Origin: Porticoccaceae bacterium
Lineage (GTDB): Bacteria > Pseudomonadota > Gammaproteobacteria > Pseudomonadales > Porticoccaceae
DNA: 41,422 nt
Assembly (NCBI GenBank): GCA_029254005.1
Contig: JAQWYJ010000041.1
Span: 1-41,422 of the forward strand
Direction of reading: 5' to 3'
Each line of letters opens with the position of its first letter. Within the stretch, counting starts at the first letter, position 1. Positions 533-5,574 of this stretch are shown here, in pieces. The position numbers and the translations under genes were made by a program. The notes under the pieces are model-generated. The model saw nothing but the letters and a program-made list of their open reading frames with translations. It ran no database searches and was not told where the DNA came from.

Positions 533-1903
533 TTAATACAACGCCTCAAGAGCCTCAGTTACCTTTCGCACAGCAACTACATTCATCCCTTTAATTGGCT
601 GCTTAGGCATATTGCCTGCAGGTACAATCGCCCGACTAAAACCATGTTTTGCTGCTTCACGCAAACGCTCTTGGCCATTCGCTACAGGACGAATTTCACC
701 GGCCAGCCCTACTTCGCCAAACACCACCAGATCTTTGGGCAATGGCTTATCCCTAAAACTGGAAATTACTGAAAGCATCAAGGCTAAATCAGCACTAGTC
801 TCTATTACCTTCACACCACCAACGATATTTACAAATACATCTTGATCACCCACAGAAACACCCCCATGACGATGAAGCACGGCAAGTAGCATAGACAAAC
901 GATTGTGATCCAACCCCACCGTTACTCGTCGCGGATTACCTAGATGACTGTCATCAACCAGGGCCTGAAGCTCTACCAATAATGGCCTGGTACCTTCCCA
1001 AATAACCATAACAATGCTTCCTGACGATATCTCCTCTCCACGTTGAAGGAAGATAGCTGAGGGGTTTGGCACTTCACGTAAACCCTTATCTGTCATAGCA
1101 AAAACCCCCAGCTCATTGACAGCTCCAAAACGGTTTTTATGACTGCGCAATGTCCTAAATTGGCTATCACTAGAACCCTCAAGCATCAGCGAGCAGTCAA
1201 TCATATGCTCCAACACTTTCGGCCCGGCAAGTGAACCGTCCTTGGTAACGTGCCCCACCATGATCAAAACAGTACCACTCTGCTTGGCAAATCGTACCAA
1301 CATTGCAGCACTCTCTCTAACCTGCGAAACACTGCCAGGCGCTGAGGCAATTTCCTGAATATGCATAACTTGAATGGAATCAACAACTAAAATTTTGGGT
1401 CGCTTTTGTTCAGCAATACCACAGACCGTCTCAACTGAGGTTTCTGCCATAATTTTAAGTTTGTCAGCGGGTAAGCCCAAACGATTCGCTCGCATAGCCA
1501 CCTGCTGAGGTGACTCCTCACCGGTAACATAAAGGGCGCTATTGAGGTTCGCCATCGAACACAAGGTCTGCAGCAGTAGAGTACTTTTCCCTGCGCCTGG
1601 TTCACCGCCTAAGAGTACGCAAGATCCGGGAACAAAGCCGCCACCAAGGACTAAATCCAATTCACCTGTACCTGAACTAATTCTGGGGATCTCATCAAGA
1701 GTAATATCTGCGAGGGACTTAACAGCACTATCTACGTCACCGGCGAATCCGGAACGCAATATCGCACCACCTTTTGTAGGGCTACCTAGGCGAACTTCTG
1801 ATAAGGTATTCCAGGCACTACACTCACTACATTGCCCTTGCCACTTATGATAATCCGCTCCGCAATCCGTACACACATAGGCAGATTTAGTTTTTCCAAC
1901 CAT
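533..1903 (-). CDS. radA: DNA repair protein RadA/Sms
   Basis: RadA is a RecA-like ATPase that drives branch migration of recombination intermediates and helps process stalled forks in the cytoplasm. From the chosen start (456 aa, normal for the family) I see a zinc finger C11-x2-C14...C25-x2-C28, a Walker A GGEPGAGKST at 99-108, the RadA signature KNRFG at 256-260, and a C-terminal Lon-protease-like domain. The frame also opens at ATG 1921. I prefer ATG 1903 because GAGG lies 8 bases upstream of it, while 1921 has no ribosome-binding site and falls close to the predicted transcription start. The gene stands alone, divergent from the DnaT-repeat gene. A LexA box upstream predicts damage induction. 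Confidence 0.97.
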   Translation of the reverse strand: MVGKTKSAYVCTDCGADYHKWQGQCSECSAWNTLSEVRLGSPTKGGAILRSGFAGDVDSAVKSLADITLDEIPRISSGTGELDLVLGGGFVPGSCVLLGGEPGAGKSTLLLQTLCSMANLNSALYVTGEESPQQVAMRANRLGLPADKLKIMAETSVETVCGIAEQKRPKILVVDSIQVMHIQEIASAPGSVSQVRESAAMLVRFAKQSGTVLIMVGHVTKDGSLAGPKVLEHMIDCSLMLEGSSDSQFRTLRSHKNRFGAVNELGVFAMTDKGLREVPNPSAIFLQRGEEISSGSIVMVIWEGTRPLLVELQALVDDSHLGNPRRVTVGLDHNRLSMLLAVLHRHGGVSVGDQDVFVNIVGGVKVIETSADLALMLSVISSFRDKPLPKDLVVFGEVGLAGEIRPVANGQERLREAAKHGFSRAIVPAGNMPKQPIKGMNVVAVRKVTEALEALY

Positions 1904-1930
1904 TGCAACATCCTCGTTCATTTATGAGAT

Positions 1931-2097: not shown

Positions 2098-3207
2098 ATG
2101 TCGTTGATACCGGAAAAACCTATTGTAATTTCACCCACCCTCGCCGCAACCATCGGTCTTGAGGAAACAGTGCTATTGCAGCTTCTCCAAGAGTGTATTA
2201 GCCATGGCAATCCAACCTTTAACAGCGGTTTTGCCTGGATAACAGTTCCGGCCGACAGACTACTTAGTTTAGCGCCTTTTTGGCGCCAAGATGATGTCCG
2301 TCGTTTAACTGCCAGCTTGCACGAAAAAGGGCTACTTTTAATTGGTGGAGTCACTTTTACTGCACATCAAGATTTTCGCTTTGCTTTTAATGAAGACTCA
2401 GTTGCCTCCGCGCCAAATCACTTAGAATCCACAAGATCAGTGCCTGCACCAAAACCTAGTTCAGCAAAGACTATTGGTAGCACATGGCAACCTAGTGAAG
2501 ATGCTCTTCGCCAGCTTAGTCAGCTTGGTGTAACTCGAGAGTTTGCGCATCAACAAGTACCCCAGTTCGTGGCTTATTGGCGAGATCGTAATATTCCACG
2601 TCATAGCTGGGAGTCAAAGTATATTAAGGAAGTCTGGCGACAATGGCAGCAAGCTGAAACAAGCAATAATAGAAGGCGCAAAGAAGTTTCAGTGACTAGT
2701 AACTGGCGACCCTCAGTAGATGCTCTTGATATTCTTGTCAGTAAAGGAGGCATTAATACTAACTTTGTCGAAGATGCCATCCCAGAATTTATTTTGTATT
2801 GGCGGGATAGGGGCGCAGTATCTAGCACATGGGATTCAAAATTTGTTCAACATGTTCGGCGCCAATGGCAATTCTACAGTGGAATGATGGAGCAAGAATC
2901 CATGCCTCGTGTGATTGGTGAAAATTGGCAACCTAAAGAAAGAGTATATGATGTTCTACAAATGGCTAATATCGATCGTCCTTTTGCCGAACAACGCATC
3001 CCAGAATTTGTTTTATACTGGCAAGAAAATGGTAGCCCTCAATCAGCTTGGAATACTCGTTTTTTGCAGTATGTAAAACGTCAATGGGCATATCAAAGTA
3101 AATTATTAACGGACACTTCAAATGGCAAACAACAAGGATATTCAAAAGGTCGCATCCGAGATCGCAGCATTATCGACGCACTCTCAGACCGAAGCTGGGC
3201 ATCCTAA
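2098..3207 (+). CDS. Replication protein with three tandem DnaT domains
   Basis: This 369-aa protein has an N-terminal segment (about 10-85) that looks like a winged helix, a linker, then three copies of a DnaT-like domain at about 129-184, 202-258 and 276-331. Each copy has the pattern W-(Q/R)-P...F...PEF-x2-YW-(R/Q)...W-x3-(F/Y)-x3-V-x-RQW. E. coli DnaT has one such domain; it binds ssDNA and helps DnaC load DnaB during restart. The gene overlaps the next one, a lambda-P-like loader, by 86 bases, so the two probably act together. From memory, a domesticated lambda O/P-like pair (DopC/DopE) has been proposed as helicase loader in gammaproteobacteria lacking dciA and dnaC. This gene would be the DopC-side partner, but that identity is inference. 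Confidence 0.85.
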   Translation: MSLIPEKPIVISPTLAATIGLEETVLLQLLQECISHGNPTFNSGFAWITVPADRLLSLAPFWRQDDVRRLTASLHEKGLLLIGGVTFTAHQDFRFAFNEDSVASAPNHLESTRSVPAPKPSSAKTIGSTWQPSEDALRQLSQLGVTREFAHQQVPQFVAYWRDRNIPRHSWESKYIKEVWRQWQQAETSNNRRRKEVSVTSNWRPSVDALDILVSKGGINTNFVEDAIPEFILYWRDRGAVSSTWDSKFVQHVRRQWQFYSGMMEQESMPRVIGENWQPKERVYDVLQMANIDRPFAEQRIPEFVLYWQENGSPQSAWNTRFLQYVKRQWAYQSKLLTDTSNGKQQGYSKGRIRDRSIIDALSDRSWAS

Positions 3208-3784
3208 ACCGGCCCCTGCTAACCCTCAGTTGATCGATGCTATCAATCAAATTTTTGCTCTATTTCAGGTGAATTATCACAACCAGTACTACAGTGCCTT
3301 TGGTGATAATACAAAATCTGAAAATCTAGCAAAAAAGCTTTGGCTAGCTAAATTAGAGCACTTTTCCGCAAGTACTATCTGTAGTGCGGCAGAGAAAATT
3401 ATATCCGAAAGTGAGTACCTACCAACATTAAATAAAATGCTCAATGCATGTCGCCATGTCGCCATGCCTGCTGGTCTTGTCAGCGCTAGACATGCCTATC
3501 AAGAGGCCTGCAATAAAACAAGTCCGAAGGCCGACCAGCCCTGGACACACCCAGTGGTTTATCTTGCCGGGCGTGATACTGGTTGGCACATGCTAGCCCA
3601 TGAAACTGAATCCAGAGCACTTCCAGCCTTTAGTGAGATATATCAACATTATATCGATCGCATGCTCGCAGGGGAAAACTTCAGGATCGAAACCACCGCG
3701 CAAGTCCCGGAGCTATGCGAATTGCCAGCGACTAAAAAACATAATCAAGAAAAACTTGAAGACTTGAAAAAGTTACTGATATAA
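3122..3784 (+). CDS. Lambda P-like replicative helicase loader (DopE-like)
   Basis: The 220-aa sequence resembles phage lambda replication protein P. An N-terminal disordered part of about 35 aa is followed by a helical domain (INQIFALFQ...LAKKLWLAKLEHF...SEYLPTLNKMLNACRH, about 39-115), then a region with HPVVYLAGRDTGWHML (about 141-156) and a basic C-terminal tail. Lambda P captures DnaB and delivers it to the origin. No prophage genes lie nearby: the neighbours are radA and aceK, so this looks like a resident, domesticated gene. It starts 86 bases inside the DnaT-repeat gene with little ribosome-binding site, suggesting translational coupling. aceK follows after 20 bases. A helicase-loading role is inferred; DnaC-type AAA+ motifs are absent. 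Confidence 0.8.
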   Translation: MANNKDIQKVASEIAALSTHSQTEAGHPKPAPANPQLIDAINQIFALFQVNYHNQYYSAFGDNTKSENLAKKLWLAKLEHFSASTICSAAEKIISESEYLPTLNKMLNACRHVAMPAGLVSARHAYQEACNKTSPKADQPWTHPVVYLAGRDTGWHMLAHETESRALPAFSEIYQHYIDRMLAGENFRIETTAQVPELCELPATKKHNQEKLEDLKKLLI

Positions 3785-3804: not shown

Positions 3805-5574
3805 ATGGCATTGCAACCTCTGATTCACAACTCCACCGCACGGCGAATGGCGAAAACCATCCTAAACGGCTTTCGTAGCTATTTCGCTGAATATCTTAAT
3901 TCAACCCTTACGGCGAAAGCCCGCTATGAGAAAGCCGACTGGCAGGGAGTAAAGGAAGCCAACGTAGAACGTTTAGAGCTTTATAAAGATAAGGTAGCAC
4001 AAACGGTAAATTATTTGGCTATGGTTACCAATCAAGATATTGCAAGCTTGACACTTTGGCGAGAAGCAAAGAAAGCTTACACTCAACTGGTGTTTAACTT
4101 CCCCAATTTTGAAATTGCAGAAACCTTTTTTAATTCGGTATTCAGTGATATTCATGATCATGACAAAATAAGTGATGATATTATTTATGTCCTGTCCTCA
4201 CAGCTGCTCGAAGCTCCAGAGGCTGAATACAGTATTTTTGTTCGATATAAAGGCGAGAACTTTCGCGACAATTTTCAACGTATTCTTGAAGAGGCTGAAT
4301 TTTCTTTGCCGATGGAAGATTTAACGTTGGATCTTGACTGTATTATGAATGTATTTAATCAGGAGGTGTTACCGCACATAAAGAATCCTCCTGAGCGAGT
4401 AAAGTTTGACCTTCTAGAGTCAACATTTTATCGTAGCAAAGCGGCGTATATGGTTGGTCGAGTTGTAGATGGGGACCAAAATTTTCCCATGGCATTAGTA
4501 ATTCTTAATAACGAACAGGGCGCTCTGTATGTTGACACGGCACTATTTAATTCTGATGAACTAAGCGTCATTTTCAGTTTCACACAAAATCATTTTATGG
4601 TGGACGCGCCGCTGCCCTATCAGTATGCACTGTTCCTGAAAAATTTAGTCCCCAATAAATTAGATTATGAAATTTATAATTCGCTGGGATTTCCAAAGCA
4701 TGCGAAAACTGAGTTTTTCCGTGAACTTGTCGGACATCTCAATAATTCCAAAGACAAGTTTGTTATAGCTCCGGGTATTAAGGGTATGGTTATGTCAGTA
4801 TTTACACTACCCTCTTACAATATTGTTTTTAAGATCATTAAAGACAAGTTTGCTCCGCCTAAAGAAGTTACGCACCAAATCGTACGCGATAAATATCGTC
4901 TTGTATCTCGACATGACCGGATTGGTCGTATGGCAGACACGCAAGAATTTGATAATTTAATTTTTCCCATCGATCGCTTTTCGCAAGAGCTTATTGATGA
5001 AATTCTTAAGGTGGCCCCCTCTCAAATTGAAATTAGGGAGGATAAGATACTGATTAGACACCTGTACACTGAACGCTACATGACACCGTTAAATATTTAT
5101 CTTGAAACTGCTAACGATAAAGAAATGCGAAGCGCTATGGAAGAATACGGTAACTGTATCAAGCAGCTTGCCGCGGCTAATATATTTCCAGGCGATATGC
5201 CTTTAAAAAACTTTGGCGTAACTCGACATGGGCGAGTGGTGTTTTATGATTATGACGAAATTGCTACTCTCACCGACTGCAACTTCAGACATATTCCCAA
5301 GGCTCGCACCGAAGAAGAAGAAATGCAGTCAGGTACATGGTACACCGTTGGCCCAGACGATATTTTTCCTGAAGAATTTAGGCTATTCTTCTCAGGGAAC
5401 ACCAAAGCCAGAAAAATGTTCGAAGAAATCCACAGCGAACTCTATTCATTGGAGTTTTGGACTGAATTACAAGACAAAATTCGCGATGGCTACGTAGTAG
5501 ATGTTTTCCCCTATCGCAGAGCAAAACGTTTTAATCGCGGTAAAAATTCTCAGTTAGCTGTATTCGCAGACTAG
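3805..5574 (+). CDS. aceK: Isocitrate dehydrogenase kinase/phosphatase
   Basis: AceK phosphorylates and dephosphorylates isocitrate dehydrogenase, switching carbon between the TCA cycle and the glyoxylate shunt. The 589-aa length is typical. I recognise the regulatory N-terminal half, the nucleotide-binding stretch APGIKGMVMSVFTLPSYN (about 323-340), the KIIKDKFAPPKE segment, and the kinase-like C-terminal lobe with FGVTRHGRVVFYDYDEI. AGAGGA precedes the ATG. Unlike in E. coli, no aceB or aceA is present; the gene follows two replication genes by 20 bases and may be co-transcribed with them. Its TAG stop overlaps the TAG stop of convergent gspB within one CTAG palindrome. Confidence 0.97.
   Translation: MALQPLIHNSTARRMAKTILNGFRSYFAEYLNSTLTAKARYEKADWQGVKEANVERLELYKDKVAQTVNYLAMVTNQDIASLTLWREAKKAYTQLVFNFPNFEIAETFFNSVFSDIHDHDKISDDIIYVLSSQLLEAPEAEYSIFVRYKGENFRDNFQRILEEAEFSLPMEDLTLDLDCIMNVFNQEVLPHIKNPPERVKFDLLESTFYRSKAAYMVGRVVDGDQNFPMALVILNNEQGALYVDTALFNSDELSVIFSFTQNHFMVDAPLPYQYALFLKNLVPNKLDYEIYNSLGFPKHAKTEFFRELVGHLNNSKDKFVIAPGIKGMVMSVFTLPSYNIVFKIIKDKFAPPKEVTHQIVRDKYRLVSRHDRIGRMADTQEFDNLIFPIDRFSQELIDEILKVAPSQIEIREDKILIRHLYTERYMTPLNIYLETANDKEMRSAMEEYGNCIKQLAAANIFPGDMPLKNFGVTRHGRVVFYDYDEIATLTDCNFRHIPKARTEEEEMQSGTWYTVGPDDIFPEEFRLFFSGNTKARKMFEEIHSELYSLEFWTELQDKIRDGYVVDVFPYRRAKRFNRGKNSQLAVFAD

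Follow-up and report, generated by a model that had tools for sequence, protein, structure and literature searches.

A chromosomal gene pair of a Porticoccaceae bacterium resembling the DopC/DopE helicase loaders: three DnaT domains, a lambda-P-like partner and a C-terminal tryptophan tail

In 2017, Brezellec et al. reportedly put forward DopC/DopE as a third kind of helicase loader in bacteria, said to consist of an adjacent phage-derived pair that includes a P-like loader and occurs in bacteria lacking dciA and dnaC. To our knowledge, the abstract of that work mentions neither three DnaT repeats, nor a tail, nor an overlap between the genes. In an excerpt of a previous paper, the Cellvibrionales are given as an order without dnaC/dnaI and dciA, and the question of their replacement is asked (Brezellec et al. 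2016, PMC5109545). An excerpt of a 2026 paper names DopE as a loader family (PMC13326638), and the names DopC/DopE used in the first-pass annotation of the locus studied here agree with it.

Several other described systems are close to this locus. The lambda O/P pair has the same initiator-then-loader gene order, P belongs to the same family (phrog_109) and O has the same short tail. However, O has a Phage_rep_O domain and no DnaT match whereas DopC has DnaT domains, and the lambda genes overlap by 4 nt (coordinates of locus L183) whereas dopC and dopE overlap by 86 nt. DnaT of E. coli shares with DopC the ssDNA-binding domain family PF17948. According to an excerpt of its description, E. coli DnaT combines a single DnaT domain with an N-terminus for oligomerization and an acidic linker that binds PriB, and its C-terminal domains wrap lagging-strand ssDNA as a left-handed filament, each interface holding two bases (PMC13377028); in contrast, DopC has three DnaT domains, a winged-helix-like N-terminus and a tryptophan tail. 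DnaD of B. subtilis has in common with DopC an N-terminal domain, ssDNA binding and, in the excerpted text, a tryptophan-bearing tail at the C-terminus onto which the next loader docks (PMC13326638), but no homology to DopC is seen for its ssDNA-binding part, and the matches between the two are limited to weak N-terminal fold and PHROG matches. Finally, DciA likely does the same job as DopC/DopE; however, its model PF05258 is not matched by the pair, and the two systems split by family except in 3 genomes.

The window analyzed here is a stretch of 41,422 nt from a Porticoccaceae bacterium. The first-pass annotation had reported two overlapping genes at 2098-3784, and these are present as two ORFs (Table 1); its title called them fused, which does not hold for what is an overlapping gene pair. 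They lie between aceK and a divergent gene that we take to be radA, a name given on the basis of its Pfam pattern. Nine of the ten flanking genes scanned have chromosomal-type matches in Pfam (the radA-type gene, aceK, an AAA/peptidoglycan-binding gene and six type II secretion genes), one has no match at all and none matches a phage family, in agreement with the earlier statement that no prophage surrounds the pair. The nearest named relatives are Porticoccaceae / SAR92 / HTCC2207 genomes. We consider it probable (roughly 0.7) that the pair serves the cell as a resident DopC/DopE-type system for loading the replicative helicase, in which DopE would open DnaB and DopC, as an adaptor, would bring DopE:DnaB to open DNA, its tail docking DopE. 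Very probably, the pair is a member of the proposed third class of bacterial helicase loaders. The earlier interpretation, taken as a whole, is partly supported.

Table 1. Position and supporting evidence of the gene pair, its domains and its neighbors in the window
Feature	Position	Strand	Evidence
radA (presumed name), divergent chromosomal neighbor	533..1921	-	Pfam pattern KaiC, Zn ribbon, ChlI, Lon_C
dopC-like gene, putative adaptor of 369 aa	2098..3207	+	ORF listing; PF17948 x3; radA upstream on opposite strand
DopC N-terminal winged-helix-like domain, residues 13-97	2134..2388	+	AF2, Foldseek, phrog_6493
DnaT domain R1	2473..2667	+	PF17948 5.2e-19, above curated cut-off
DnaT domain R2	2692..2880	+	PF17948 6.3e-24, above curated cut-off
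DnaT domain R3	2917..3099	+	PF17948 2.9e-23, above curated cut-off
dopC/dopE overlap, 86 nt, out-of-frame, encoding the DopC tail and the DopE N-terminus	3122..3207	+	ORF coordinates
Tail motif DRSWA, DopC residues 364-368, proposed DopE docking motif	3187..3201	+	Alignment conservation, P partners
dopE-like gene, putative lambda-P-like helicase loader of 220 aa	3122..3784	+	phrog_109 6.2e-17; AF2 model matches lambda P 9oa1_Z
aceK, downstream chromosomal neighbor	3805..5574	+	PF06315 3.1e-119

Residues 12-217 of DopE match the 'P-like helicase loader' family phrog_109 over nearly the whole length, a family that lambda P itself matches at 2.1e-98. The annotated likeness to lambda P is thus confirmed at the level of this family; however, the Pfam lambda P model PF06992 is not matched by DopE at E <= 1, and is reached by two phage relatives. 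Lambda P of the DnaB complex (9oa1) provides the top three PDB matches of the AF2 model of DopE (mean pLDDT 77, pTM 0.51), with E-values from 1.8e-4 to 2e-2 and a probability of 1.00, the match to 9oa1_Z (E 1.8e-4, probability 1.00) having a TM-score of 0.49. Since 4 of the 40 rows of the alignment behind the model are phage P proteins, the independence of this fold match is weakened. With a profile built from DopE only, lambda P is not recovered from the PDB sequences at E <= 1.

DopC matches Pfam DnaT (PF17948) at 1.7e-65, with 217 bits (gathering cut-off 25), in three separate stretches whose period is 73-74 residues, which bears out the three tandem DnaT-type domains of about 73 residues noted previously. 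With the DnaT equivalog model PRK02854, it scores 14.9 bits, below the threshold of 201. In the AF2 model of DopC (mean pLDDT 84, pTM 0.44), the helical units are confidently modelled as separate bodies, the arrangement between them being left unpredicted. In this model, the N-terminus (residues 13-97, pLDDT block means 84-96) is similar to the winged helix of plasmid initiators and, to a lesser degree, to DnaD: Foldseek matches it to the plasmid initiator domain 4pql/4pt7 with a probability of 1.00 and E-values of 0.055-0.064, which are weak, and to the DnaD structure 2v79 less closely (E 1.0), and residues 2-83 weakly match the DnaD-like family phrog_6493 (7.4e-5).

The triplication of the DnaT domain had been regarded as special to this locus. 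This view is not upheld: exactly three DnaT matches are counted in 84 of the 93 genomes of the family (88 have any DnaT match), and three are also found in many families of the order. A tree was built from 181 repeats, namely 150 from 50 three-repeat proteins (those of L039-L068 that remained once identical ones were removed, plus our own DopC and a random 20 of the rest), those of 21 one-repeat proteins and of one two-repeat protein, and eight phage repeats. R3 of 50/50 proteins fall in one clade together with one phage repeat (support 0.98), R2 of 50/50 in another with three phage repeats (0.74) and R1 of 39/50 in a third with three phage repeats (0.73). Since the repeats group by position, the triplication is old and each repeat has its own constraint. 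The set of DopC proteins whose repeats were counted also includes 22 one-repeat proteins and a single two-repeat protein (L088); judged by eye, the chromosomal proteins with one repeat are similar in their N-terminus and tail to those with three. As for four DnaT units in one protein, they were ruled out at the three loci covered by this check among four-match genomes (L379-L381), where each DopC has three units and the fourth match of the genome lies elsewhere.

An excerpt on E. coli DnaT lists F124, Y127, W128, K133, F135, K143, R146 and others as ssDNA contacts (PMC4132743). Among 121 non-redundant three-repeat DopC proteins, the equivalent of F124 is kept in all proteins in R1, R2 and R3 (121/121/121), that of W128 in 107/121/121 and that of Y127 in 106/121/109, the remaining 12 R3 having F; K or R stands at the position of K143 in 114/113/121. 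R1 is the most relaxed repeat, with Y127 changed in 15 of the 121 proteins and W128 in 14. K133, F135 and R146 are not conserved in most or all DopC repeats, and therefore the grip of DopC on ssDNA may differ from that of E. coli DnaT.

Three features go beyond the first-pass annotation: a C-terminal tryptophan tail, an overlap of conserved length and phage-borne copies. The tail is invariant from D364 to A368 in all 42 rows of alignment A2, including four phage rows. The pattern [DN]-x-[DSTN]-W occurs within the last 25 residues in 160 of the 162 DopC sequences with a partner, which include redundant loci, and in 142 of the 144 distinct ones, the two sequences without it being L071 and L072. 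The same short tail is carried by the C-terminus of lambda O (TNTDWIYGVDL), and a Pseudomonas phage protein without Pfam match, encoded upstream of a P-like gene, ends in HDDDW. P-like proteins form 38 clusters, of which 26 have an upstream ORF fitting the adjacency rule; the other 12 were left out. A strict form of the tail, [DN]-x-[DST]-W, is present upstream in 10 of these 26 clusters and in 0 of 91 control junctions from the same loci (Fisher 6e-8), a cluster being counted if any member had the motif whereas each control is one locus. With one random member per cluster, 7.8 matches are expected for the first-noted pattern, 8.9 for the strict one and 9.9 for the widest one.

The strict pattern is partly post hoc, as it was fixed after all tails had been inspected; the motif first noted was [DN]-[RTD]-[SD]-W, found in 9 of the 26 clusters, and seven of the ten strict-tail clusters were already known at that time. 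Among the 19 new clusters, the first-noted pattern is found in 2 (p 0.029), the strict one in 3 (p 0.0045) and the widest one, [DN]-x-[DSTN]-W, in 4 (11 of the 26 in total). The strict tail is seen in only 2 of the 45 loci of the large Pseudomonas phage cluster that have an adjacent ORF. In B. subtilis DnaD, W229, located in the last eight residues, docks the co-loader DnaB, according to the excerpted text (PMC13326638). This parallel suggests, by analogy, that the DopC tail docks DopE.

The tail might instead bind another target, such as DnaB or SSB, and its co-occurrence with P-like genes would then be mere gene order. This would fit the 16 of 26 P-like clusters in which the upstream gene lacks the strict tail, as well as four viral records that carry the tail and have no P-like match. 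However, the tail is found in proteins of differing domain content (lambda O, DopC and the Pseudomonas phage protein) whose common trait is a P-like partner, and for each of the three patterns it is absent from all 91 control junctions when every cluster contributes a single locus, and present in 2 of 951 when all loci are used. We consider a target other than DopE to be a serious but doubtful alternative.

The tail is encoded in the overlap, whose length is 83-92 nt in all 79 named relatives with both genes. In loci with one-repeat proteins, the overlap ranges from 47 to 104 nt and is commonly 83 nt, leaving aside L071, L072 and L088, which are prophage-type in appearance and barely overlap their partner. 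The 86 nt at 3122-3207 are thus read in two frames with a near-fixed length in named relatives, and the overlap is possibly pinned by the C-terminal motif. The DNA that encodes D-R-S-W-A of DopC reads T-x-A-G in the DopE frame. This T-x-A-G is found at the N-terminus of 120 of 162 DopE proteins and is absent from 42, many of which have kept the overlap. Where the overlap has shrunk or been lost (L046, L053, L054 and L088), DopC retains D-[RT]-S-W and DopE is without T-x-A-G, that of L054 still having A-A-G. From these sequences, the persistence of the tail in four loci without T-x-A-G is suggestive of the DopC frame being the constrained one, and T-x-A-G of DopE is disfavored in this role; since T-x-A-G is missing from many DopE proteins anyway, its loss is weak evidence on this point.

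DopC-like proteins are also encoded by five viral contigs (L341-L344 found with the DopC alignment, then L383 by a second scan). Each has two Pfam DnaT domains and a D-R-S-W-A tail near its end. Four of these contigs (L342, L343, L344 and L383) are Mu-like, the DopC-like gene being closely followed by GemA and Mor genes. Further along, the L344 record contains an integrase-core transposase and an AAA ATPase above Pfam cut-offs; the L342 record shows both below them. In L341, the gene adjoins a cytosine methylase, and the two DnaT domains are nearest host R2 and R3, while those of L342 and L343 come closest to R1 and R2, though the distances are long. A P-like gene was looked for in the records of L341-L344, which may be fragments, and none was found. 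It may be speculated that these phages borrowed the host adaptor to recruit the host DopE:DnaB. A tblastn search with DopC gave no match in annotated phages and one in annotated plasmids, in which D-T-S-W stands 44 residues before the end and not at the end. Viral scans with P0008 and with the P-like protein of L075 found no relative, and the scan with the P-like protein of L070 found one locus.

Outside the order, dopCE-like pairs with a looser D-x-x-W tail occur in small genomes (L349, L356 and L358, of 1.2-1.3 Mb, and L370, of 1.5 Mb); the looser tails of L349, L356 and L370 were excluded from the tail counts. Two DnaT repeats are recognizable in L349 and L358, and three in L356 and L370. 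In L349, L356 and L358, the pair lies between DAHP-synthase-like and RND-adaptor-like genes (names given by eye). The system thus reaches beyond the order, at a different locus.

Taken with the tails of lambda O and other P partners, the phage copies lead us to a tentative model, to which we give rather less than an even chance. In it, a portable tryptophan tail at the C-terminus, roughly [DN]-x-[DST]-W, would call P-type loaders and be common to unrelated initiators (lambda O, domesticated DopC and others); in DopC, it would sit on a covalently pre-joined three-unit DnaT filament; and Mu-like phages with a stripped copy (two DnaT domains and the tail, with no P of their own found) would steal the host DopE:DnaB for transposition-replication. 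We found no description of the shared tail or the phage-borne copies in the open-licence literature searched, which does not include the 2017 DopC/DopE paper and was queried in terms not specific to the tail.

The locus is conserved among named relatives. The radA gene lies upstream of dopC on the opposite strand in 75 of 80 named loci; among the other five, four are cut by a contig end and L128 has no radA within 2.6 kb. Downstream, aceK is found in 59 of the 80. The culturable relative Simiduia aestuariiviva (L176) has the same system. The dopC frame is open in 80/80 loci and dopE is found in 79/80, L100 and L154 being read as longer frames and L175 being cut by a contig end. DopC and DopE distances correlate with those of radA (Mantel r 0.79 each, 0/999 permutations as high, 69 of the 80 loci). 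The locus is chromosomal, vertically inherited and not mobile, given its same place in relatives, the radA-correlated divergence and the lack of a flanking phage family; mobility in close relatives, which would have spoken against the first-pass interpretation, is not what is seen. A second dopCE in genome G065 (L376) was considered as a prophage copy and rejected, since a radA-like gene is found in the same N-rich contig, which is probably a strain mixture.

The genome of this bacterium, which is 94% complete in 147 contigs so that gene absences are not absolute, yields no match to DciA (PF05258), no loader of DnaC size, and no DnaT or P-like gene beyond those of the pair. The DnaC-type AAA+ model PF01695 finds four ORFs in it, which are by Pfam Lon, DnaA, a Clp ATPase and PhoH, and matches neither DopC nor DopE. 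In addition, DciA is found in 0 of the 93 family genomes. The proposal of a domesticated phage loader in place of DnaC or DciA therefore stands, the dciA or dnaC gene that would have contradicted it having been looked for and none found. Five of the 93 family genomes lack a DnaT match. Two fairly complete ones (G083 and G085) have neither DnaT nor DciA, through an assembly gap or loss.

Across 391 genomes of the order, DnaT is found in 243, DciA in 119, both in 3 and neither in 32. The two are split by family, the exceptions (G293, G403 and G314) belonging to DciA families and having one DnaT match each; this family-level split is a fairer statement than an exclusivity p-value, which ignores relatedness. 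The P-like family phrog_109 is found in at least 237 of the 391 genomes, of which 231 also have DnaT and 7 DciA, and in at least 25 of 377 genomes class-wide; these scans give lower bounds, as our own genome (G000) was missed in them and found when scanned alone. The order genomes with both a P-like gene and DciA are G145, G218, G243, G293, G327, G347 and G349, perhaps because of prophages. Locus conservation, radA-correlated distances and near-exclusivity with DciA together draw the picture of a domesticated, vertically inherited loader.

Could the pair be a PriA-dependent restart module, like E. coli DnaT with DnaC, another and unrecognized factor loading the helicase at the origin? The three DopC domains are those of the restart protein DnaT, DopC is the sole DnaT protein found in its genome and the C-terminal domain of E. 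coli DnaT docks on PriA, according to an excerpt (PMC13377028). However, neither DciA nor DnaC was found, and the split of DnaT and DciA by family, three genomes excepted, fits a shared essential job. Moreover, PriB_gamma reaches its curated cut-off in 0 of the 93 family genomes, so that the set of PriA, PriB and DnaT known from E. coli is not encoded in that form. A role confined to restart thus seems unlikely to us, and the pair may serve both origin firing and restart. Weak PriB matches are seen in 14 family genomes, in frames of 94-239 aa that may be SSB.

That the pair might be selfish, or the relict of a phage, and have no role in the cell, as phage relatives of DopE (6 records) and the same tail in lambda O might suggest, is very improbable in view of its constant place in named relatives, its radA-correlated divergence, the dopC frame open at every named locus, the scanned flanking genes free of phage families and the near-exclusivity with DciA.

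For a resident DopC/DopE loading system, we propose the following interactions and function, beside the observed gene content, conservation, near-exclusivity with DciA and distribution of the tail. In this scheme, DnaA or PriA would act first, followed by DopC, DopE and finally DnaB. By analogy with DnaD and RepA, the winged-helix-like N-terminus of DopC may be held by an initiator or by DNA. Judging from the contact residues kept in DopC and from the structure of the E. coli protein, its three DnaT units would lie along ssDNA as three pre-joined protomers of the E. coli DnaT filament, at about two bases per unit, and such a ready-made stretch would lessen the need to assemble DnaT monomers. 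The flexible D-R-S-W tail, common to P partners, would dock onto DopE, which, as its fold and family suggest, would bind and open the DnaB ring like lambda P; DopC would thereby act as the adaptor that brings DopE:DnaB to open DNA.

If this is true, chromosome replication in a large, mostly marine branch of the Gammaproteobacteria is started with a loader of phage origin. The tail would be a single-residue handle (W367A in DopC, the W of NTDW in lambda O) on the hand-over of the helicase to P-type loaders. Furthermore, the copies carried by phages would offer a natural case in which a phage function, once domesticated, has been reclaimed by phages.
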